DNA from: Streptomyces sp. NBC_00582
Lineage (GTDB): Bacteria; Actinomycetota; Actinomycetes; Streptomycetales; Streptomycetaceae
Direction: 5' to 3'
Length of the DNA: 64,000 nucleotides
Assembly (NCBI RefSeq): GCF_036345155.1
Contig: NZ_CP107772.1
Location: 2,604,001-2,668,000 of the forward strand
The notes beneath the pieces are model-generated. The model did no database searches. It was not told the origin of the DNA and saw only the letters and a program-made list of their open reading frames with translations. The position numbers were made by a program, and so were the translations under genes. This document shows positions 3,532 to 61,459 of the stretch, piece after piece. The stretch's first letter is position 1, and the number at the start of each line of letters is the position of its first letter.

Positions 3532-4842
3532 TTACGGGGTGAGCCGGTTTGGCCCACGGAAGAGGAAGCTGGCCTCGCGGATGGACTCCAGGCCGAGCAT
3601 CACCATCAGCACCCGTCCGAGGCCCATGCCCAGGCCGCCGTGCGGCGGGCACCCGTACCGGAACGCGTTCAGGTAGTCCTGCATCGGCTCGGGGCTCATG
3701 CCCTTCTCGGCGGCCTGCTTCAGCAGCACCTCGTAGCGGTGCTCGCGCTGCGCGCCGGTGGTGACCTCCAGGCCCTTCCACAGTAGGTCGAAGCTCAGGG
3801 TCACGCTCGGGTCGTCGACCGGCCGCATGTGGTAAAAGGGCCGGATACTCACCGGATAGTGCGTGATGAACACGAACTCGTGCCCCGTGGCCTCCTGGAT
3901 ATGGGCGCTGATGCTCCGCTCGCCCTCCGGGTCCAGGTCCTCCTTGATTCCCTCCGGGTCCCAGCCGCCCTTGCGCAGGATGTCGTGCGCCTCGGCCATG
4001 GTGATGCGGGGGAACGGCGTCTCGGGGACAGTGATCTCCACGCCGAACTGTTCCTGGACGGCCTCGCCGTGGGCGTCGGCGACCTTGGCGATCGCGTGGG
4101 CGAGCATCCGCTCCTCGAACACCATGACGTCCTCGACACCGTCGATCCACGCCAGCTCGACGTCGACGCCAGTGAACTCGGTGGAGTGCCGGGAGGTGAA
4201 CGACGGCTCGGCACGGAAAACGGGGCCGATCTCGAAGACCTTGTCGATCCCGGCCGCGATCGCCATCTGCTTGTAGAACTGGGGCGACTGCGCCAGGTAG
4301 GCGCTGCGGCCGAAGTAGCCGAGCTTGAAGACTTCAGCGCCGGACTCCGAGGCGGTGCCCATGAGCTTGGGGGTGTGCATCTCGGTGGCGCCCTGCGCGT
4401 AGGCGTACTCGCGCATCCCCTGCTCCAGGGTGGTCTGCACGGCGAACATCAGCTGGGTGGCGGGACGGCGGCGCACGTCCAGGAAGCGCCAGTCCAGCCG
4501 GTGCTCGATCCCGGTGTGCTCGTCGATCGGCAGCGGTGTGGCGGCCTGGTTCAGCACCTGGATCGTCTCAGGGACAACTTCGAGGCCGCCGAGCTTGACC
4601 TGGGCGGCGTCCACGACGCGGCCGGTGATCTTGACGGCGGACTCGGGGGTGAGGGCTTCGAGCTGGGCCTCCAGCGGCCCACTGTCACGCCTGTGGGTGA
4701 CTTGCACCAGACCGGTGCTGTCCCGTACGACGACGAACTGCATCTTGCTCTGCAGGCGAAGGGTGTTTACCCATCCGCAGACGGTTACGGTGCGGCCGAC
4801 GTGTTCTCGCAGGTCGGAGACGTGTACGTGGCTTTGGATCAT
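3532..4842 (-). CDS. aspS2: Archaeal-type aspartyl-tRNA synthetase (probable second AspRS)
   Basis: Class II aminoacyl-tRNA synthetase, 436 residues, charging tRNA with aspartate in the cytoplasm. Residues 1-100 form the OB-fold anticodon-binding domain (VCGWVNTLR at 21-29). The catalytic domain follows: QSPQFYKQ at 185-192, which is typical of AspRS rather than AsnRS, FRAE motif 2 at 209-212, and motif 3 GLGMGLGR at 403-410 with RLTP at the C-terminus. It lacks the bacterial GAD insertion, as expected for the archaeal or short type. The start at 4842 is supported by GGAGG at 4849-4853; a longer frame to 4929 would run through the leader. A T-box leader lies upstream. Streptomycetes normally have a bacterial-type AspRS elsewhere, so this is probably an extra copy, possibly non-discriminating or a self-protection enzyme (inference). 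Confidence 0.88.
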   Translation of the reverse strand: MIQSHVHVSDLREHVGRTVTVCGWVNTLRLQSKMQFVVVRDSTGLVQVTHRRDSGPLEAQLEALTPESAVKITGRVVDAAQVKLGGLEVVPETIQVLNQAATPLPIDEHTGIEHRLDWRFLDVRRRPATQLMFAVQTTLEQGMREYAYAQGATEMHTPKLMGTASESGAEVFKLGYFGRSAYLAQSPQFYKQMAIAAGIDKVFEIGPVFRAEPSFTSRHSTEFTGVDVELAWIDGVEDVMVFEERMLAHAIAKVADAHGEAVQEQFGVEITVPETPFPRITMAEAHDILRKGGWDPEGIKEDLDPEGERSISAHIQEATGHEFVFITHYPVSIRPFYHMRPVDDPSVTLSFDLLWKGLEVTTGAQREHRYEVLLKQAAEKGMSPEPMQDYLNAFRYGCPPHGGLGMGLGRVLMVMLGLESIREASFLFRGPNRLTP

Positions 4843-4846
4843 TGCG

Positions 4847-4860
4847 GTCCTCCGAAGGAC
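4847..4860 (-). promoter_or_regulatory. Shine-Dalgarno hairpin of aspS2
   Basis: On the minus strand the sequence GTCCT-TCGG-AGGAC folds into a 5-bp stem with a TCGG loop and holds the GGAGG ribosome-binding site of aspS2. This fits a translational output for the T-box leader, the usual mode in Actinobacteria; the coupling is inferred. Confidence 0.45.
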
Positions 4861-4900
4861 ATCGTCATGATCCCTTGGGAGTGCGGGCGAGAAGGGCAAC

Positions 4901-5105
4901 TCGCGGTACCACCGCACTTTCGCCGCCACCTGCCGGTGACAGCCTCATTCGGGCCCGGTGACGGGGGCCGGCCGGCGGGGCATTGGGACACCCAGGGGCG
5001 CCGTTTCTCCCCGCGCTCGGGAGGGTCTTCACCTTGGGGCGCGAGACCGCCTTCACAGCTTCCGGCGGCTCTCTCGGCTCGCGAGATCCCTGGCTACTCG
5101 TCTCC
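4901..5105 (-). promoter_or_regulatory. T-box riboswitch of aspS2
   Basis: The minus strand carries the T-box core GTGCGGTGGTACCGCGA (4917-4901), which binds the NCCA end of uncharged tRNA. About 150 nt upstream is a stem I-like arm: AGTA at 5098-5095, AGAGAGCC at 5074-5067, and a GCCGCC/GGCGGT stem around AAGCTGTGAA. After the arm, GAA-GAC lies at 5030-5025; GAC (5027-5025) is the best specifier candidate and would read tRNA-Asp, matching the downstream enzyme. I see no terminator with a U-run, and the Shine-Dalgarno is in a hairpin, so control is probably at translation. The T-box core is seen directly; the specifier is inferred. Confidence 0.82.
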
Positions 5106-5396
5106 GTCAACGCGTTGCCCGGAAGGATATGGATCTCACGGGTGCCGCCGCAACCAAGAACGGCGACCCCCCGCAATGGGAACTGGCCCTGTCTCGGGGA
5201 AGTCCAGTGAGCAACCAACCCCAAAAGGAGCGGCACTGAAGATGCGGTGGATCTCGATCTATTTGACCACCGGCGTGATCTTTCCCGTCCACCGTCCCAG
5301 CCGCGGAGCCCCGCGCTCACTGAGCAGAAACGTCAGAAGCTCCCTGGTCATCTTCGCCACCCCTAACGCCTCATCAAGAATCCCGTAAGGCGTGCG

Positions 5397-5522
5397 TCAC
5401 GTGCGTCCCTCCGACACCCACGCCGCAGCCGCCCGTCGCTGCACCGCACGGGCATAGGCCGCTGGCGTCGGAGCACACGCGACATAGCCTGCAGCGACCC
5501 CTGCGACCACGAATCCGATCAA
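5397..5522 (-). CDS. Possible small membrane peptide
   Basis: A TTG-started frame of 41 residues preceded closely by a stop. It has a hydrophobic Gly/Ala/Val-rich first half (LIGFVVAGVAAGYVA) followed by a basic Arg/Gln/Ala tail. The composition fits a one-span membrane peptide, but there is no clear ribosome-binding site. It is divergent from the gene at 5660. It could equally be a remnant. Confidence 0.25.
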   Translation of the reverse strand: MIGFVVAGVAAGYVACAPTPAAYARAVQRRAAAAWVSEGRT

Positions 5523-7931: not shown

Positions 7932-8160
7932 GCAGGCGAGGCGTTCAGCCCCGAGCGCATCCGTGTCACCTGGAACGGTCCCGCGAGCGTCCAGGACGTC
8001 GCCCGGGTGTTCGGCATGCCGAGATCAAAGGGCTACGACCTTGTGCGTCGCGGGGAGTTCCCCTGCAGTGTGCTGCCGATCGGCCGCACAGCCCGTGCCG
8101 TCGCCGCCTCGCTCCTCCGCGTCCTCGAGAGCGGCGAGCCGACAGCCCCGCCGGACCAGA
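7932..8160 (+). pseudogene. Excisionase-like helix-turn-helix gene, start lost
   Basis: In frame and directly after the stop at 7887 the sequence reads RIRVTWNGPASVQDVARVFG, then MPRSKGYDLVRRGEFPCSVL and a LLRVLE end. This is the MerR/Xis-type HTH of small DNA-binding proteins in actinobacterial integrative elements. No ATG, GTG or TTG precedes the conserved part in this frame, and the frame runs on past the usual end, so it is probably a remnant. It is the best preserved of four related copies (others at about 26290, 37110 and 41850). A hairpin-like GCCCCGCC...GGGG sequence follows at about 8145-8175. Confidence 0.55.
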
Positions 8161-8290
8161 CCGACGGGGATTCGTCGTGCTGTCAGGTGTCACGCGCGAA
8201 TCACAGACCCCGTGGACACCCTCCGGCACAGGATCCCGAAACTGGACATACATGTCCGCATAGGACTGGATGGACGGCCCTGGACAGCTT

Positions 8291-8398
8291 CTACGACATG
8301 TGCCATGTGGTACCCAGTGAGGGACCCAAGATCAGGACCGGAGCGTCTTCTGGCCCGTCAAAGCGGTATTGCAGGGTGTTCGGGGGTGTCTCACTCAC
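8291..8398 (-). pseudogene. 5' fragment of a 3-oxoadipate enol-lactonase-like gene (copy A)
   Basis: From a GTG at 8398 the 35-residue frame contains QYRFDGPEDAPVLILGPSLG and TTWH, matching the first strands of PcaD-type alpha/beta hydrolases, then stops. The catalytic part is missing. The same fragment, with the stop at the same codon, lies beside the second IS110 copy (42181-42288). Confidence 0.6.
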
Positions 8399-8426
8399 GC
8401 CCCAGACCCTCTCACGTCTCACGGAC

Positions 8427-9631
8427 GCCCCTATAACGCGGGTGTGCGGGCAACCGGTCTGACCAGGTTGAACACCTCGCGGGCGGCATATCGCTTGAGG
8501 CATCGGATGATCTCGCGTCGGGTCTTGCCTTCCTGGGTGCGGCGTTCGTAGTACGCCTGGGTGCGCGGGTCGTGACGCAGGCGGGTGAAGACGATGCGGT
8601 GCAGGGCCGCGTTCGCCTGGCGGTCGCCGCCGTAGTTGAGCCGGCGTGTGCTCCGCCGACCCGAGGAGTACTCGATGGGGCTGACTCCGCAAAGGGCAGC
8701 AAAGGACGCCTCGGTGTTCAGCCGGTCGGGGTTGTCTCCCATGGTGATCAGGAGCGTGACAGCGCTGTCCGGGCCGATGCCCACGGGTTCGAGTAACTGT
8801 GGGGCGTGGCGTTCCACGAGCCGGGTCAGACGTTGGTTCAGCTCGTCGATCTGAGCGGTGAGCTGTTCGATGCGCTCGGCGAGCATGCGCAACGTCAGGT
8901 GGGTGGCCTGGGCCACCGGGTCCTCGTCTCCCCCACCGTCGGGTAGGCCGAGGCGCGCGCAGGTGCGGAACAGCTCGGCATTGCCGAGGCTCGACAGCCG
9001 TTCCCGCAGGGCGGGATCGGCTATGACCAGGACGGCCTTGAGCTGGTTGATCGCCTGGGTGCGGGCCTTGACCGCGGAGTCCTTGGCGAGCTTGAACAAC
9101 CGGGCACTATGCACCGGACCGTCGCCGGACTTGGCCCGGGCCCCGGCCCGGCCACTGAGCACAGCCCGCGCGGCGGCCTGCGCATCGAGCGGGTCCGACT
9201 TTCCCAACAGACGGCGGGCCGAGCGGTCGGGCCGGTTCACCTCGTACACCTCGACCTGCTGCGCCAGCAGGTAGCGGGACAGGCCCGCTCCGAAGGTGCC
9301 GGTGCCCTCCACACCGGCCCGACGCACCGTCCCCCGCTTACGGGCCCAGGTGAGCAGCTGCCGGTAGCCGGCCGCCGTCGCCGGAAAGGACTCAGTCCCC
9401 AAGATCTTCCCGAGCGGGGAGATCGCAGCGGCGACATGCACATCGCCGTGCGTGTCCACGCCCAGGACGACCTCGCGCCGAACGGGAGGGTCTGTGCTCG
9501 AGGAGGTGCTGCGCTTTCTGGTCGTCATGATGGTTCGCCTCCCACGTGATGACGTGCTGCTGGATGGATGGCACCGGCCCGCTCGGACGGTCTGAACCGT
9601 GATGGCGCCTGGTACGCGGCAAGGCCCCTAT
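8427..9631 (-). mobile_element. IS110-family element, copy A
   Basis: The transposase gene is bounded by direct repeats GCCCCTAT at 8427-8434 and 9624-9631, about 1.2 kb apart, with no terminal inverted repeat. This fits the IS110 group. The stop codon of the transposase lies inside the left repeat. About 100 nt of non-coding DNA sit upstream of the transposase, where IS110 elements may encode a bridge RNA. Similarity with copy B (42317-43517) continues outside both repeats, so the exact ends are uncertain. Confidence 0.65.
8431..9528 (-). CDS. IS110-family transposase (copy A)
   Basis: 365 residues, DEDD RuvC-like recombinase. The N-terminal domain shows GVDTH (about residue 23), an EGTGTFG segment near 90-96 and KSDPLDA near 127. 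The C-terminal transposase-20 domain has GIGPDSAVTLLITMGD and the serine-bearing AALCGVSPIEYSSGRR. Length is close to the usual 350-400. Start ATG 9528. It is nearly the same as the second copy at 42302-43417, and with an intact frame it is the better candidate for an active enzyme. Confidence 0.93.
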   Translation of the reverse strand: MTTRKRSTSSSTDPPVRREVVLGVDTHGDVHVAAAISPLGKILGTESFPATAAGYRQLLTWARKRGTVRRAGVEGTGTFGAGLSRYLLAQQVEVYEVNRPDRSARRLLGKSDPLDAQAAARAVLSGRAGARAKSGDGPVHSARLFKLAKDSAVKARTQAINQLKAVLVIADPALRERLSSLGNAELFRTCARLGLPDGGGDEDPVAQATHLTLRMLAERIEQLTAQIDELNQRLTRLVERHAPQLLEPVGIGPDSAVTLLITMGDNPDRLNTEASFAALCGVSPIEYSSGRRSTRRLNYGGDRQANAALHRIVFTRLRHDPRTQAYYERRTQEGKTRREIIRCLKRYAAREVFNLVRPVARTPAL

Positions 9632-10229
9632 TGGGACACGTCCTGTGGCTCGGTACCGGCAGCGCCATCCCGCATCGGCAGTCGACAAGCCTGTGACTGG
9701 ACACTTCGGTCATAGATCTCATGAGTCAGACCCCCGCCCGGGACGGCGTCGCGCAACCGTCCCATCGACCCCGGCGCATCGGCACCTCCCGACCACAGCC
9801 GGAAAGCTTCGCCCGAACCAGTGCCAAACGCGGCCGAAGCAGGCTGAGAACGAGTCGACTCCCCGCCCAGTCATGACCGGCAATGACTGACCGCCCGGTC
9901 CTTGCCGGACAGTCTCGACCGGGTGGCCATGTCCGTCGGAGGAGGGCGGCAAATCCGTCGACGGTTCCGGGTCCATGCCGTTGGTATAGCCGCTGGTTGC
10001 AAGGTGCGTCTGCAAGGTGGTGTGGGTGTCGCGCAGCCACGTGAGTCTGCGGTCGACGGGGGTGGGGTCGGTCAACTGGTGCCAGCAGAAGCGGTGCTGC
10101 ACGACGCCGACGGCAGCCCGGTGGGAGAAGGTGGTCACGCCCGGGGCCGGTCGTTGGCAGCGCCGCCGAGGACGTCGATGAGCAGTCCGCTGGCCCCGCT
10201 CGGAAACCCCCGCCGCAGGACAGCACCTG
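9632..10229. other. Flank of IS110 copy A; no confident gene
   Basis: To about 9700 the sequence is still similar to the flank of copy B (43518-43582, ending GTGACTGG). Beyond that a minus-strand frame 9719-10138 (139 residues, including TWLRDTHTTLQTHL) has moderate coding character but no recognised family and no good ribosome-binding site. I treat it as unassigned. Confidence 0.3.
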
Positions 10230-10452
10230 CCTACTGTTCTCCGTCTAATCGACTTCCAGCCACGTCAGCCCCCTCGTTCGGACGAATCGACTCGAAGCGC
10301 CCGTCGCCGACGAAAAGAACTGACACCATGCCGCCGCCGTAAGTCACTTCAAGTCGAAGGCGGACCATTGGAACGGCGGGTCAATGAGCGGCAGCTCTCG
10401 GTGTTGCAGTGGGTGCAAGCCGGGTGCCCTGCCGGTTTATGGGAGACCAGCT
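10230..10452 (+). pseudogene. Truncated paralogue of the 6483 gene (5' end only)
   Basis: Upstream region and first about 25 codons match 6360-6570: the inverted repeat at 10277-10296, then an in-frame ERRVNERQLSVLQWVQAGCP from about 10368. Similarity stops abruptly at GGGAGACCAGCT (10441-10452), where the sequence becomes the antisense of a DNA-ligase fragment. So this is a broken duplicate joined to unrelated DNA by recombination. Confidence 0.7.
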
Positions 10453-10933
10453 GGCTTCCACGGATAATCAGGCCCTCAATGCCGGGGACCGCGGCCCAGG
10501 ACATCAGCCATTCCCGGGCGAGGGTCACATCGCCGGTTTCCGGGCACAGCGTCCGCGGGTCGGCCAGGTGGTGTTGGGCGAACACCGTATCCAATCGCGC
10601 CCGGCACTCGGCGTATTGCCTCAGCAACAGTTCGTGACCGTCGATCTGGAGGGCATCGAACACGACGAAGTGGGCCGGCATCTGCTCAGCAAGCCGGGCG
10701 GCAGTCCGGCCGTGGGAGGCCGCGCGTCGTTGCAGGGCCTCGAAGGACAGGTGCTCACCGGCCCACACCAGCAGTTCTCCACCGAGGATCAGGCCGCTGG
10801 GAAGCTCGGCCGCGGCGTGCACGAGGTCGGGGAATCGGACCTGGATCAGTGCCCCGCGCCGGGACTGGATCAGGACGGGTCCAGGCGCCGGGCCGGGGGT
10901 GAACACGAGGGCTCTGCAGCCGTCCTTCTCCAG
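10453..10933 (-). pseudogene. Internal fragment of an ATP-dependent DNA ligase
   Basis: Minus-strand frame with IQSRRGALIQVRFPDLVHAA, GLILGGELLVWAG, LSFEALQRRAASHGRTAARL and EGLIIRGS, typical of the nucleotidyltransferase domain of LigC/LigD-like ligases. The start of the fragment reads LEKDGCRALVF, which corresponds to the KxDG adenylation motif but lacks the residue between Lys and Asp. The N-terminus is missing (a stop lies 4 codons upstream) and the C-terminus, including the OB fold, is replaced at 10452 by the 6483-paralogue fragment. Non-functional. Confidence 0.75.
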
Positions 10934-11102
10934 ACTTTGCCGTGCTCATGAGACATGGGCCCGTTGAAACGACTGGGGCTGCGAGTACGGCGGTGGGAGT
11001 GGATACGGCAGGGCCTCGTCGAGTCCCGGGACCAGACGGCAGCGCCGCGAGGCGGACGCCGGGTCGATTCGTCTCTGTGTACGTAGAGCTTGACCACCGC
11101 GC

Positions 11103-12410
11103 ATGACCTCGCGCAGATTGACGCCTTCTGTGACAGTTCCCAAGCTGGAGACGGGGCCGGTGGAAGGAGCCGTGATCGTGAGCGGTGGGCAGAGTGGACT
11201 TCCCCGGCTGCTGACCGCAGCGGAGAGGGCGGCACCGGTGGACGCCGTCGCGGTGGTCGCTGAGGACCTGCGGCGGCGGTTCGGGGCCACGCAGGTGTCC
11301 TTCCTCATCGTGGACCTGACGGGAAAGGCGGTGGCACGCCTGACCACGGCCGCCGGCGCGGAGGGTGGGCGGGAAGCGGAGCGGATTCCCATGTTCGGCA
11401 GCGTCTACGAGCAGGTGATCCGTACCCAGCGGCTGTATCAGGAGGCGACCGGCCAGGGACAGCGGGTGATCGTGCCGGTCACCAACCGGGGCGACGCCAT
11501 CGGGCTGCTGGAACTGCTCCTGCCCGCCGGCCCCGGCGACGACGTCCTTGACGAGGTCGGTGAAGCCGCCCACATCCTGGCCTACGTCGTGATCGCCAAC
11601 GGACGCTTCACCGACCTCTACACCTGGGGCAAACGCTCCAGGCCCCCCACGTTGGCGGCTGAAATCCAGTACCAGCTGCTGCCCCCGTCACTGTCGTGCG
11701 AGGCTGCGCAGTTCACCTTGTGCGGGAGCTTGGAGCCCTCGGAAGACCTCAGCGGCGACACCTTCGACTACGCGCTGGACCGCGACACCCTGCACGTGTC
11801 GGTGACCGACCCCATGGGCCACGACATCGATTCCGCCCTGGCCGCCACCGTACTGGTGGGCGCCCTGCGCGGCGCCCGTCGTGCAGGTGTCGGCCTGGCC
11901 GAGCAGGCCCAGCGGGCCGACCAGGCCCTGGCCGATCACGGCCACGGTCACGCCACCGGGCAACTGCTGCGCATCAACCTCCACACCGGTCGCGCCCAGC
12001 TCGTCAACGCCGGCCACCCCTGGCCACTACGCATGCGCGACGGGACTGCGGAAGCGATCACCTGCGAGGTGGACCACCCCTTCGGGCTGCCCGTGTCCGT
12101 GCCCCACCCCTACCGTGTTCAGGACCTCGATCTGCGCCCCGGTGACCGTCTGCTCATGGTGACCGATGGCATGCTCGAACGTCATGGGGAGAAGGTCGAC
12201 CTGCTCGCCCTGCTGAAGCGCACCCGGGATCTGCACCCGCGGGAGGCGGCGCTGACGCTGACGTCCGCGGTCCGGGATGCCGCCGGGGGCCGGCTCGCAG
12301 ATGATGCCACCGTGATGTGCCTGGACTGGCACGGCCCCCAGGAGACCCTGCGACACGTCAGCTCCGGCGCGGACACTGAGCAGGCTTCAGCCGGCCGCAC
12401 GAAGCAGTAG
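11103..12410 (+). CDS. GAF-domain PP2C (SpoIIE-type) serine phosphatase
   Basis: 435 residues from ATG 11103 (an in-frame GTG at 11173 is possible). Residues 40-170 resemble a GAF sensor domain. Residues 195-410 form the PP2C/SpoIIE fold: DLSGDTFDY replaces the usual GGDxYD, then [27 protein letters not shown] and DDATVMC, which carry the metal-binding aspartates. Such enzymes dephosphorylate anti-sigma-factor antagonists in Streptomyces stress signalling. The substrate here is inferred only, since no anti-sigma gene is adjacent. A second relative with an extra PAS domain lies at 35132. Confidence 0.85.
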
Positions 12411-12559
12411 CCGTTGACCAGGGCGCTGTGCTGGACGGTCCCACTCGGCCAGTGCATGGCTCTCGCGCCTCGCCCCTTCATGCGCAAGCCTGAGTTCTCA
12501 TATTGCTTAGGGGCTGTAGGCGGCTCCGGCGGCCGTCGTTCTTCAGACTTCGACATGTC
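12411..12559. promoter_or_regulatory. Intergenic region ending in a 14-bp perfect palindrome
   Basis: TGTCTCATGAGACA (12556-12569) is a perfect palindrome at the 3' end of the phosphatase gene and the tail of a broken LysR gene. Most of it (CTCATGAGACA) recurs at 10945-10955. It could be an operator of a dimeric regulator or a recombination scar. Confidence 0.3.
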
Positions 12560-13330
12560 TCATGAGACACATAGCACCCCGAGAGAGGGCCCCCATCCGT
12601 CAGGCAAGGTGACGCTTCCCCGGTGCCGGTAGCGAAGATGCCGTGAGCCCCGAATGGTCCCAGAGAATGCCCTGGGCGACTCCAACGACGGAATCGGCCG
12701 ACGGGCGTGTGGTCGCAAGGTGGCGGTGGTGAGGAAGGCGTCTTTGGCGGGGCTGGTGGTCCGTGGGGAGTACCGGGCCTGCAGGGGTGCGTAAAGAGGT
12801 GGGTCGAGGGCGACGATGCGTACGGCGCCGCCGGGGGCGGGGCCTGGGGGTGTGGTGACGAAGGCGAGACGGTCGGTGCCGATGACGGCGGTGACCGGTG
12901 GGGTGCCCTGGAGGGGGGTGCGTTCGGTACGGGGTTCGAAGCCGGCCGCGCGGCAGTGGCCGATGAGCAGGTCGGTGTAGCCGGAGTGGCCAGGCTGGCC
13001 CCAGACGATGAAGTGCTGGTCGGCGAGATCGGACAGAGACACTGACGTGCGTGCGGCGAGGGGGTGGTCCGCGGCGACCGCGATGTTGAAGGGCTGGTGG
13101 CCCAGGGTGGTGCGGGCCAGGCCGTGCGGCGGGGTCAGTGCACGGCACAGTCCGATGTCGAGGTCTCCAGCCAAAAGGGCATCGGTCAGCTCGGCCGGCT
13201 AGCGCTGGTTGACCTCGGTAGCCAGGTGGGGGTGGACGGCACCTACTTGCCGCAGCAGAGCAATGACCTCCTCCCCGGTGACGGCCGGGGTGTGGCCCAG
13301 GCGCAGCATCTCCTTCTCGCCGCGGCCGAT
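12560..13330 (-). pseudogene. LysR-family regulator, truncated and with an in-frame stop
   Basis: The effector-binding half is clear: MLRLGHTPAVTGEEVIALLR, LAGDLDIGLCRAL, FNIAVAADHPLA and AFVTTPPGPAPGG. A TAG at about 13200 breaks the frame between VNQR and PAELTDALL, and the whole N-terminal winged-helix domain is missing: at about 13330 the reading changes to unrelated DNA. No functional product is expected. Confidence 0.7.
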
Positions 13331-13401
13331 GCGGCGGGCACGCACCTCCCACACCGCGTCCCCACGGACGATGAACTGATGCTCCCCAACGACCCTTTCG
13401 T

Positions 13402-13683
13402 GCACTCGACCGACAGGCGTGCCTGCGCCTGCTCGCCAAGGTGCCGGTCGGCCGCGTGGTCTACACCCGCCAGGCACTGCCCGCGGTCCTGCCCATCAAC
13501 TTCTCCCTGGACATGGACGCCTCCATCCTGCTGCGCACCTCACCGGACTCGGACCTGGTACGCGCCATCGACGGCGTCGTGGTCGCCTTCGAAGCGGACG
13601 AGTTCGATGCAACGGCCCGGTCCGGCCAGAGGGATAGTGGACAGGCGCGCGCCGAAGGTCCCGTGTGTCGTCAGCACTTGTGA
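13402..13683 (+). pseudogene. PPOX-type flavin/pyridoxamine oxidase-like fragment
   Basis: Reads LRLLAKVPVGRVVYTRQALP, INFSLDMDASILLRTSP and VVAFEADEFDA, the core barrel of the Pyridox_ox_2/NimA-like family. There is no proper start upstream, and the second half, which normally continues with a Trp/Val-rich strand, is lost after DEFDA. It is joined back to back with the truncated LysR gene, so one deletion or inversion may have removed both N-termini. Confidence 0.6.
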
Positions 13684-13698
13684 CACACGGGCCGGAGG

Positions 13699-14595
13699 TC
13701 AACCGTCAGAGCTGCGTGCCCGGTCGCGCGGTTCGGTCGTTGCGTCCCGGTCGGTTGTCGCGGTCCAGCTGGAGAGGAGGTTGAGGGCGTCGTGTCCGGG
13801 GGTTCCGGGTTCGGCGCTGAAGGCGGTGAGGGTCAGGCCGGGGTCTGCGGGCAGGGGCATCGCTTCGAAGGGGAGGGTGAGGTCGCCGACGACGGGGTGG
13901 TGGAAGTTCTTGGTGCCGGTGTGGTGGAGGCGGACGTTGTGCGCGGCCCACAGGGTGCGGAACTCCTCGCTGCGGGTGGCGAGTTCACCGACGAGTTCGG
14001 TCAAGGCCCGGTCGTAGGGGTCCCGGCCTGCCTCGGTACGCAGCAGGGCCACCGTGGTGTGGGCGGACTCTTCCCAGTCGGGGTAGAAGTCGCGGGCGCG
14101 GGGGTTGAGGAAGCGGAAGCGGGCCAGGTTGACCGGCCGGGTGGGGCCGTCGAAGACGGGTGCGTACAGGGCCCGGCCGAGCCGGTTGGAGGCGACGATG
14201 TCCAGTCGGCCGTTGCGTACGTAGGCGGCCGCGTCGGTCATGGAGTCCAGCAGGTGCTGGATGCCGGGCCGGATCTGTTGGCGGGCGGGGCGGCGGCGGG
14301 TGCGGGGGCCGGTGTTCGCGGTGCGGGCCAGGTCGAACAGGTGGGCGCGTTCGGCCTCGTCGAGCTGCAGGGCGCGGGCGAGGGCTTCCAGGACGCTCTC
14401 TGAGACGCCGGAGAGGTTGCCGCGTTCCAGGCGGGCGTAGTACTCGACGCTGACGCCGGCAAGCAGGGCGACCTCCTCGCGGCGCAGTCCGGCGACGCGC
14501 CGGTGGCCGCTATGGGCGGGCAGCCCGGCCTGCTGCGGAGTGATCTTGGCTCGCCGCGAGATCAGGAACTCGCGGACCTCGCTGCGGTTGTCCAT
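13699..14595 (-). CDS. XRE-family regulator with MmyB-like ligand-binding domain
   Basis: 298 residues; start ATG 14595. The N-terminus (residues 1-75) is an HTH_31-type DNA-binding domain with HRRVAGLRREEVALLAGVS and YYARLERG. The rest is the MmyB-like PAS-type pocket (residues 100-280; DIVASNRLGRALY, FYPDWEESAH, HHPVVGDLTLPFE). Such regulators usually control the adjacent divergent redox genes, here the operon starting at 14759. An imperfect dyad CTGT-N11-ACAG at 14637-14655 in the 163-nt shared promoter region is a possible operator (inference). Confidence 0.9.
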   Translation of the reverse strand: MDNRSEVREFLISRRAKITPQQAGLPAHSGHRRVAGLRREEVALLAGVSVEYYARLERGNLSGVSESVLEALARALQLDEAERAHLFDLARTANTGPRTRRRPARQQIRPGIQHLLDSMTDAAAYVRNGRLDIVASNRLGRALYAPVFDGPTRPVNLARFRFLNPRARDFYPDWEESAHTTVALLRTEAGRDPYDRALTELVGELATRSEEFRTLWAAHNVRLHHTGTKNFHHPVVGDLTLPFEAMPLPADPGLTLTAFSAEPGTPGHDALNLLSSWTATTDRDATTEPRDRARSSDG

Positions 14596-14758
14596 GTTTT
14601 CCAAGGCTAGGCCGGGCGGGGACGGCGTGGGGTGCCCTGTCAGTACACGGAACAGCGTGCACTCCCTCACCGTGTCGATGAGCTGTTTCCTGGTGGGTGT
14701 CGAGGGACCGCAGGCGTGTGCGGTCCTCAGCTCCTAGCGCGGCACGAAGGCAGGAACG

Positions 14759-15106
14759 ATGACTCAGGAGACGCAGAGCAAGCAGCCGTCGGGCGCCCGG
14801 GCACTGCTCGGTGACGTCGCACCGAAGCTGGTGGAGCTGACCGATGAGGTCCTGTTCGGGGACGTGTGGGAGCGTGCGGAGCTGTCCCCGCGCGACCGCA
14901 GCCTGGTGACCGTCACGGCCCTGGCGGCGCTGTACCGCACCGACCAGCTCGGTTTCCATCTGCGCCGGGCTCTGGAGAACGGGCTCAGCCAGGAGGAGCT
15001 GGCCGAGGCACTGACCCACCTGGCGTTCTACGCCGGCTGGCCCACTGCGATGAGCGCCGTCTCCCAGCTGAAGACCATCGTCGAAGAAGCCGGTCCGGCC
15101 GCCTGA
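14759..15106 (+). CDS. Carboxymuconolactone decarboxylase family protein
   Basis: 115 residues. Contains the CMD/AhpD-like helical fold: SPRDRSLVTVTALAALYRTD, then HLRRALENGLSQEELAEALT and HLAFYAGWPTAMSA. The CxxC of peroxidase-type AhpD is absent, so a decarboxylase-like or unknown role is more likely than peroxide reduction. First gene of the operon divergent from the MmyB regulator; the cupin gene follows 82 bp downstream, a pairing often seen in actinomycetes. Confidence 0.88.
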   Translation: MTQETQSKQPSGARALLGDVAPKLVELTDEVLFGDVWERAELSPRDRSLVTVTALAALYRTDQLGFHLRRALENGLSQEELAEALTHLAFYAGWPTAMSAVSQLKTIVEEAGPAA

Positions 15107-51188: not shown

Positions 51189-51251
51189 GTTGGGTCGGGG
51201 ACGGGACGCCATGCACCCTCTCGGGTGTCGGTTTTCCCATCCCCGCCCGCC

Positions 51252-51286
51252 GAACCGGACGTGCCCGTTGGCCGAGCATCCGGCTC
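51252..51286 (-). ncRNA. Domain V of the group II intron
   Basis: GAGCCGGATGCTCGG, then CCAACGGGCACGTCCGGTTC, matches the bacterial domain V pattern GAGCCGUAUGC...GCACGUACGGUUC, with the catalytic AGC triad at the 5' strand and paired GAGCCGG/CCGGTTC arms. This is the catalytic core of the ribozyme. Confidence 0.85.
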
Positions 51287-51304
51287 TCCACGTGATCCGA
51301 TGGA

Positions 51305-61348: not shown

Positions 61349-61354
61349 GAGTGC

Positions 61355-61430
61355 GGGCCGTGACTGGCGCTGAGGTGGAGTACCACCGGGGAGCGGCCTG
61401 ACGTCTCGTCGATGCCGTGCGCCTGGGCAC
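61355..61430 (+). promoter_or_regulatory. ZTP riboswitch (pfl motif) of folD
   Basis: GGGCCGTGACTGGCGCTGAG, then GTGGAGTACCACCGGGGAGC and GGCC, followed after a short linker by the CCGTGCGCCTGGGCAC hairpin. These are the conserved P1 (GGCCG 61356-61360/CGGCC 61394-61398), P2 (GGTGG/CCACC) and pseudoknot hairpin P3 (GTGC/GCAC) of the pfl motif. It senses ZTP/ZMP, the signal of 10-formyl-tetrahydrofolate shortage, and activates the next gene, folD, which makes that cofactor. Confidence 0.92.
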
Positions 61431-61459
61431 CTCACCGTGGAGCTCAGGAGTGGCACGTG

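Follow-up and report, generated by a model that had tools for sequence, protein, structure and literature searches.

Predicted tRNA-Asp-responsive T-box control of an accessory archaeal-type aspartyl-tRNA synthetase gene in Streptomyces sp. NBC_00582

The window analysed here is a 64,000-nucleotide stretch of the Streptomyces sp. NBC_00582 genome (NZ_CP107772.1, positions 2,604,001 to 2,668,000). Near its start, on the minus strand, lies aspS2 (3532..4842), which encodes a second, archaeal-type aspartyl-tRNA synthetase (AspRS2) of 436 aa and begins with an ATG at 4842. The gene is preceded by a leader on the same strand (4843..5119) that begins with Stem I of a T-box and ends immediately before the start codon. 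The T-box covariance model RF00230 matches 5119-4880 (minus strand) over all 219 model positions with 64.4 bits (E = 1.4e-13 in a search of 801 b), and in a search of the whole 11.1 Mb genome the aspS2 leader is the best of three T-box matches (E = 4.7e-13). The other two lie upstream of a second seryl-tRNA synthetase gene (SerRS2, locus L002) and of ileS (locus L003), the latter gene being recognised by eye. The score is lower than the RF00230 gathering score of 93; T-box matches are present in all 121 genus genomes and none of these genomes has one above 93, so the gathering cut-off excludes this kind of T-box. Folding energy was dropped as uninformative, since dinucleotide shuffles reach free energies as low as that of the leader (z = −0.13), which is weak evidence at this G+C. 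Judged by sequence and comparison, the leader is almost certainly a T-box, as originally predicted. The span first given for it, 4843..5105, does hold the T-box, but the model match begins at 5119, 14 nt beyond 5105. Two further RNA elements were matched in the window, a ZMP/ZTP riboswitch (61350-61435, plus strand, 59.6 bits) and a Group II intron domain (51189-51288, minus strand, 45.1 bits).

In the distal part of Stem I, a AGAGAGCC arm (5067..5074) aligns to the RF00230 consensus AGAGA and is conserved in the leader alignment; we take it to be the part that contacts the tRNA elbow in T-boxes with a long Stem I. The specifier codon GAC (Asp; 5025..5027), located by the covariance-model alignment and by relatives, is followed by the Stem II and Stem IIA/B region (4954..5014; covariance-model and leader alignments), Stem III (4922..4946; covariance-model alignment and computed fold) and the antisequestrator (4880..4918), all on the minus strand. 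Helix A1 of the antisequestrator pairs 4918-4912 with 4886-4880 and helix A2 pairs 4904-4900 with 4891-4887. The T-box core GGUGGUACCGCG occupies 4913-4902, and the bulge for the tRNA 3' end, of the NCCA-pairing form UGGN, reads UGGU (4911-4908); A1 covaries. The A2 loop, CCCUU (4892..4896), is complementary to AAGGG at 4876-4872. Stem II and Stem IIA/B are wholly or largely absent from six leaders (L052, L054, L055, L057, L072 and L078), in which GACA replaces the usual GACC at the specifier, as it also does in L041 and L045.

That GAC is the specifier, as had been proposed, is borne out by the covariance-model alignment, by relatives and by a paralogous leader. GAC occupies this position in 51 of the 52 T-box leaders found among the best 80 of 280 relatives from titled genomes; in the exception, L035, the 3' half is retained and no specifier region can be recognised. 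An independent check comes from the SerRS2 leader (L002) of the same genome, which is 80% identical to the aspS2 leader over 265 columns and has UCC at the same place (GAA-UCC-CCUCCCGAG versus GAA-GAC-CCUCCCGAG). We are therefore highly confident in predicting tRNA-Asp as the ligand of the aspS2 leader. Three tRNA-Asp(GUC) genes were found in the stretches fetched, which cover part of the 76 tRNA genes, and all three have G73, opposite which the UGGU bulge can form only a wobble pair. The bulge is UGGC or UGGU in most relatives and UGGA, which would mismatch G73, in five loci (L036, L037, L038, L066 and L135). The third tRNA-Asp(GUC) gene (L168, 4088-4160, minus strand; C1:2015088 in its own genome) is divergent and sits beside other lower-scoring tRNAs; it is possibly an accessory partner.

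No terminator-like site was found at 4700-5400. The Shine-Dalgarno sequence GGAGG (4849..4853) and the start codon lie in a hairpin at 4836..4873 (minus strand), which appears both in the MFE fold and in an alignment of 30 leaders. Its outer helix pairs GGAUCAU (4873-4867) with AUGAUCC (4842-4836), which contains the start codon, and its inner helix pairs GUCCU (4860-4856) with AGGAC (4851-4847) across a UCGG loop and holds most of the Shine-Dalgarno sequence, which had indeed been predicted to sit in a hairpin of its own. Covariation of this platform was computed on 30 chosen leaders, with 500 shuffles and slid structures as controls. Pairing was possible in 97% of cells, compared with 36-53% in slid structures. 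In A1 of the antisequestrator, 100% of cells were paired and three of seven pairs had changed on both sides. The start-codon helix (six pairs counted) was invariant in all 30 leaders, and in the Shine-Dalgarno helix one pair had changed on both sides (a UA/CG exchange) and the innermost pair failed in 15 of 30. Double-change cells numbered 40, against a shuffled mean of 13.3, and both this count and the covariation score were above all 500 shuffles; but 225 of 500 shuffles had at least as many double-change pairs as the leaders (4), and 396 of 500 at least as many pair types.

The sequence AUGAUCC is kept at the start of the AspRS2 gene in L120, though the protein encoded there is only 39% identical to that of the window, and it is found at none of the candidate starts listed for 26 of 28 T-box-free loci, the other two having no candidate. 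This pattern, together with the conservation of the helix, suggests selection on the RNA and hence translational control. With the Shine-Dalgarno sequence sequestered and no intrinsic terminator, control of aspS2 is most probably translational, in agreement with the mode of action first proposed.

How the two halves of the leader communicate is less evident from folding. The antisequestrator and the Shine-Dalgarno/start hairpin coexist in computed folds of the window leader, and forcing the antisequestrator leaves the hairpin closed in these folds. In all 30 leaders the loop CCCUU can pair with the linker AAGGG, and one of them (L072) has a double change; four SerRS2 leaders (L113, L115, L116 and L118) have CCCUC/GAGGG, the fifth base of which also lies within A2, and the SerRS2 leader L002 retains only four such pairs. 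We rejected this pairing as a default nested OFF helix, since forcing it costs about 3 to 12 kcal/mol relative to the antisequestrator (34 sequences folded); an A2 pseudoknot formed by these bases is possible. A release helix, CCAAGGG:CCUUGG, was likewise set aside, as it fits some leaders by eye (L039, L051 and L141) and not all. In five deep relatives (L189, L190, L192, L194 and L195), a plain anti-Shine-Dalgarno CCUCC adjoins or overlaps the A1 3' strand (by eye), which looks like the classic arrangement, and the window form seems to be derived from it. We infer that uncharged tRNA-Asp binds the leader and opens the Shine-Dalgarno/start hairpin.

Translational T-boxes on actinobacterial ileS are known from the accessible portions of PMC1262725 and PMC7583486. 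Like the class II ileS T-boxes described there, the aspS2 leader has a T-box core, an antisequestrator and a hairpin that sequesters the Shine-Dalgarno sequence, and lacks a terminator. It differs in having a long Stem I with AGAGAG and a Stem II and in reading Asp; moreover, its sequestrator holds both the Shine-Dalgarno sequence and the start codon and does not plainly share a strand of A1, whereas in the ileS-type leaders L121, L128 and L129 the A1 3' strand can pair with the Shine-Dalgarno sequence (by eye).

The protein encoded by aspS2 passes the cut-offs of two NCBIfam models, NF003483 (aspartate--tRNA(Asn) ligase; 480.1 bits versus 353) and TIGR00458 (aspS_nondisc; 392.9 bits versus 368.4), and contains PF00152 and PF01336 domains. 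Its closest solved structures are those of AspRS (3nel/1b8a) and Thermus AspRS-2 (1n9w, E = 1.2e-84). The genome also encodes the main bacterial AspRS (589 aa, 35-38% identical to AspRS2 where aligned), and the description of aspS2 as a second, archaeal-type AspRS gene therefore holds. A bacterial AspRS scoring above the cut-off is present in 13 of the 14 genomes with AspRS2 relatives that were searched (the L058 genome is not part of this set), and the sole genome without one is a 2.8 Mb MAG. GatB is encoded away from aspS2, and no AsnRS match was found in the genome at E ≤ 1e-3; a 353-aa class II frame was rejected as an AsnRS because it resembles asparagine synthetase A, with a score below the cut-off.

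The name of the first NCBIfam model, the presence of GatB and the lack of an AsnRS match would all fit a non-discriminating AspRS2 that makes Asp-tRNA-Asn for GatCAB, with the T-box tuning asparagine supply; an extra archaeal AspRS does so in Deinococcus and Thermus (PMC4206432, available part). The specifier, however, is GAC rather than AAC, and a genome without AsnRS would already require its main AspRS to charge tRNA-Asn. In addition, a His and a Pro in the anticodon-binding domain, which we take to be markers of non-discriminating, tRNA-Asn-charging AspRS, are present in L120, in the aligned proteins of a second AspRS2 lineage (lineage b) and in Thermus 1n9w. Although AspRS2 of the window belongs to the same family as the archaeal-type AspRS2 of Thermus and Deinococcus, an alignment with 1n9w shows that the window clade has N in place of the His (GWVNTLR) and K-L in place of the Pro (QVKLGGLE). 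Because these presumed markers are missing, we predict that AspRS2 of the window is Asp-specific. The mischarging of tRNA-Asn that was raised in the original prediction is not supported, in view of the missing markers and the GAC found in 51 of 52 leaders, and we consider a role in asparagine supply very improbable.

Within the genus, AspRS2 was found in 14 of 121 genomes (15 genes), and an RF00230 match lies directly upstream of every one of the 15 genes. An order-level sample yielded AspRS2 in 23 of 293 genomes (E ≤ 1e-60), 13 of which carry 39-41% homologues and come from one other family; the T-box core is upstream in 19 of 20 newly fetched loci from this sample, and the miss is a partial gene (L137). 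At the class level, a search with the lineage b protein returned 16 of 296 genomes (E ≤ 1e-100), in 12 of 114 genera, and 15 of these 16 loci match a 3'-domain covariance model upstream. Among the best 80 of 280 relatives from titled genomes, the T-box core is present at 52 loci, and the 3'-domain model matched none of the 28 T-box-free loci at E ≤ 0.01; in three of the latter (L056, L081 and L086) the gene is incomplete or interrupted. Accessory AspRS genes with a T-box are thus widely scattered in the class. The AspRS2 homologues in L136 and L137 are shortened or have in-frame stops, a decay that we read as a sign of accessory gene gain and loss. One genome (G006) has two T-box AspRS2 copies, the second of which (L123) is near glycosyltransferase, HD domain and radical SAM genes.

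A convergent gene set follows AspRS2 in 24 of the 52 T-box loci and in none of the 28 T-box-free loci, some loci ending early. The set encodes a 260-aa protein that matches cupins weakly and two radical-SAM proteins of 320 aa and 433 aa; in longer stretches a 119-aa protein lies beyond it. The 433-aa protein resembles PapB peptide maturases, though far below the cut-off (106 versus 340 bits). Of the 121 genus genomes, 10 carry a homologue of it with at least 76% identity; all 10 are among the 14 that have AspRS2, and in each the radical-SAM gene adjoins AspRS2 on the same contig (10 of 15 genus AspRS2 genes); the other four AspRS2 genomes have no close homologue. Weaker homologues (50-53%) number three, and the genomes that carry them lack AspRS2. 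The linkage gives a Fisher p of 7.9e-12, or 2.0e-9 with the weak homologues counted, values that are both too small owing to shared descent. An anti-phage role was set aside, the radical-SAM proteins having just viperin-like matches of at most 50 bits. The 119-aa protein has 58 relatives, none with a functional name; it was discarded as a peptide precursor, being conserved over nearly its full length in seven copies with no apparent variable core. In the window genome there is no homologue of the 433-aa radical-SAM protein at E ≤ 1e-40, and the 14 kb at the start of the window contain none of the cluster genes. An IS110-type transposase gene near aspS2 (8431-9528, minus strand) suggests a mobile region.

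These distributions bear on whether the T-box serves ordinary amino-acid homeostasis, with AspRS2 boosting charging at low aspartate and no link to an inhibitor. T-boxes classically respond to amino-acid limitation (PMC7583486, as far as its accessible text goes), and the window genome has no close radical-SAM homologue. On the other hand, AspRS2 is accessory (14 of 121 genus genomes) while T-boxes are present in all 121, the main AspRS, for which such control would have been expected, lies near none of the three T-boxes of the genome, and AspRS2 clusters with radical-SAM genes in relatives. Homeostasis alone is thus an unlikely explanation, and AspRS2 probably serves as a backup rather than in a routine function. 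The GAC T-box on a second AspRS gene, in a genome that has its main bacterial AspRS, supports the earlier suggestion of an inducible backup enzyme.

The leader may have a history of its own. SerRS2 of the window genome (L002, 1501-3068; C1:2395396 onward in its own genome; TIGR00414, 386.4 bits versus a cut-off of 301.65) has an APH-like kinase gene as its neighbour and is located about 0.2 Mb outside the window. Four other T-box loci, L036, L037, L038 and L066, also have SerRS2 upstream of AspRS2, again accompanied by an APH-like kinase gene; in L111 and L112 the distance between SerRS2, upstream, and AspRS2 is about 3 kb. The leaders of the window and of L120, a lineage b locus, share 79% identity over 253 columns, against only 39% for the proteins, and the leaders beside the lineage b genes of L182 and L193 are 85-86% identical to the window leader over about 200 columns; those of the deep lineage b loci L189, L192 and L194 are only 51% identical to it. 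A quick protein tree (62 chosen rows, midpoint root) groups those members of the window lineage that have a T-box in a single clade, nested among T-box-free relatives; the proteins of these members, like that of L120 and in contrast to those of the T-box-free relatives, start with MI.

Such similarity of leaders across divergent proteins, extending to the 80% identity with the SerRS2 leader, would be expected if the leader were a cassette exchanged by recombination among AspRS2 lineage a, lineage b and SerRS2, with the specifier changed, and both the single T-box clade and the shared MI start point the same way. Nevertheless, the leader tree (43 chosen rows) is poorly resolved, neither grouping all lineage a leaders (p-AU 0.077) nor grouping all lineage b leaders (0.18) is rejected, and strong constraint on the RNA could keep leaders similar. 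We regard the odds for and against cassette exchange as about even; it is compatible with a backup AspRS, and as a lead we note that the window lineage may have captured a lineage b leader together with its start codons. The lineage b T-box AspRS2 of L120 lies near agmatinase-, SbnB-, SbnA- and carbamoyltransferase-like genes (8130-14899; mostly below cut-offs), a neighbourhood that looks like a diaminopropionate-type cluster.

The explanation that we favour, and hold to be fairly probable, is that aspS2 encodes a tRNA-Asp-induced backup AspRS under a translational T-box, acting as target-replacement resistance, the marker gene of the cluster being absent from this genome. The leader would act as a long Stem I translational T-box in which the GAC specifier reads the tRNA-Asp anticodon and, when this tRNA is uncharged, the UGGU bulge reads its free 3' end. 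As long as tRNA-Asp is charged, the hairpin holding the Shine-Dalgarno sequence and start codon would stay closed. Uncharged tRNA-Asp would build up when aspartate is short or, more likely, when the housekeeping bacterial AspRS is inhibited; it would then stabilise the antisequestrator and allow the spare AspRS to be translated. At 35-38% identity, this enzyme might be divergent enough to be spared by an inhibitor of the main AspRS, giving a resistance whose inducer is the tRNA and not the drug. The product of the radical-SAM cluster in many relatives may be such an AspRS inhibitor, and it is possible, though we would put it at somewhat under even, that AspRS2 is the self-resistance gene of that cluster in relatives.

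A more tentative reading joins these elements. The T-box and AspRS2 would together form a self-resistance module against an undiscovered AspRS-inhibiting natural product, made by the two radical-SAM enzymes with the cupin-like and small conserved proteins; strains like that of the window would have acquired the module for resistance without the rest of the cluster; the leader would be a portable cassette, placed on two AspRS2 lineages and on SerRS2, its specifier adapted as needed; and the start-codon-pairing platform with CCCUU/AAGGG would be a new coupling of T-box to translation. We regard this combination as doubtful when all its parts are taken together.

Known systems resemble this one in part. 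Saad et al. reportedly described in 2013 a two-codon T-box in Clostridium acetobutylicum whose transamidation operon has an extra AspRS gene among its members. Both T-boxes would thus act on an extra AspRS, but two tRNAs are read there, whereas the leader studied here has one specifier, GAC, and belongs to the Actinobacteria, with GatB elsewhere in the genome. A second parallel is SerRS2 that confers albomycin resistance (PMC9437257, in its accessible part); like it, AspRS2 is a divergent second copy of a housekeeping synthetase, but it is an AspRS with a T-box leader, and it is linked to no known inhibitor. Extra AspRS genes in Actinomycetales are known from the available sections of PMC4206432, and TBDB, as described in the accessible part of PMC7778990, scanned Actinobacteria for class II T-boxes, so single aspS2-type leaders may be listed there. 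Our literature searches, within the text open to them, found no published report of a T-box on an actinobacterial AspRS2 or of its link to radical-SAM genes.

Accessible papers treat actinobacterial T-boxes in connection with ileS; the present survey places them on accessory AspRS genes scattered over the class. The occurrence of Asp and Ser specifiers and of two AspRS lineages on one leader type amounts to a natural specifier-swap experiment. In the search for new AspRS inhibitors, the radical-SAM cluster linked to AspRS2 gives a concrete lead that can be tested. Having the very tRNA that a failing main synthetase leaves uncharged induce a backup synthetase may be a general way of building resistance.
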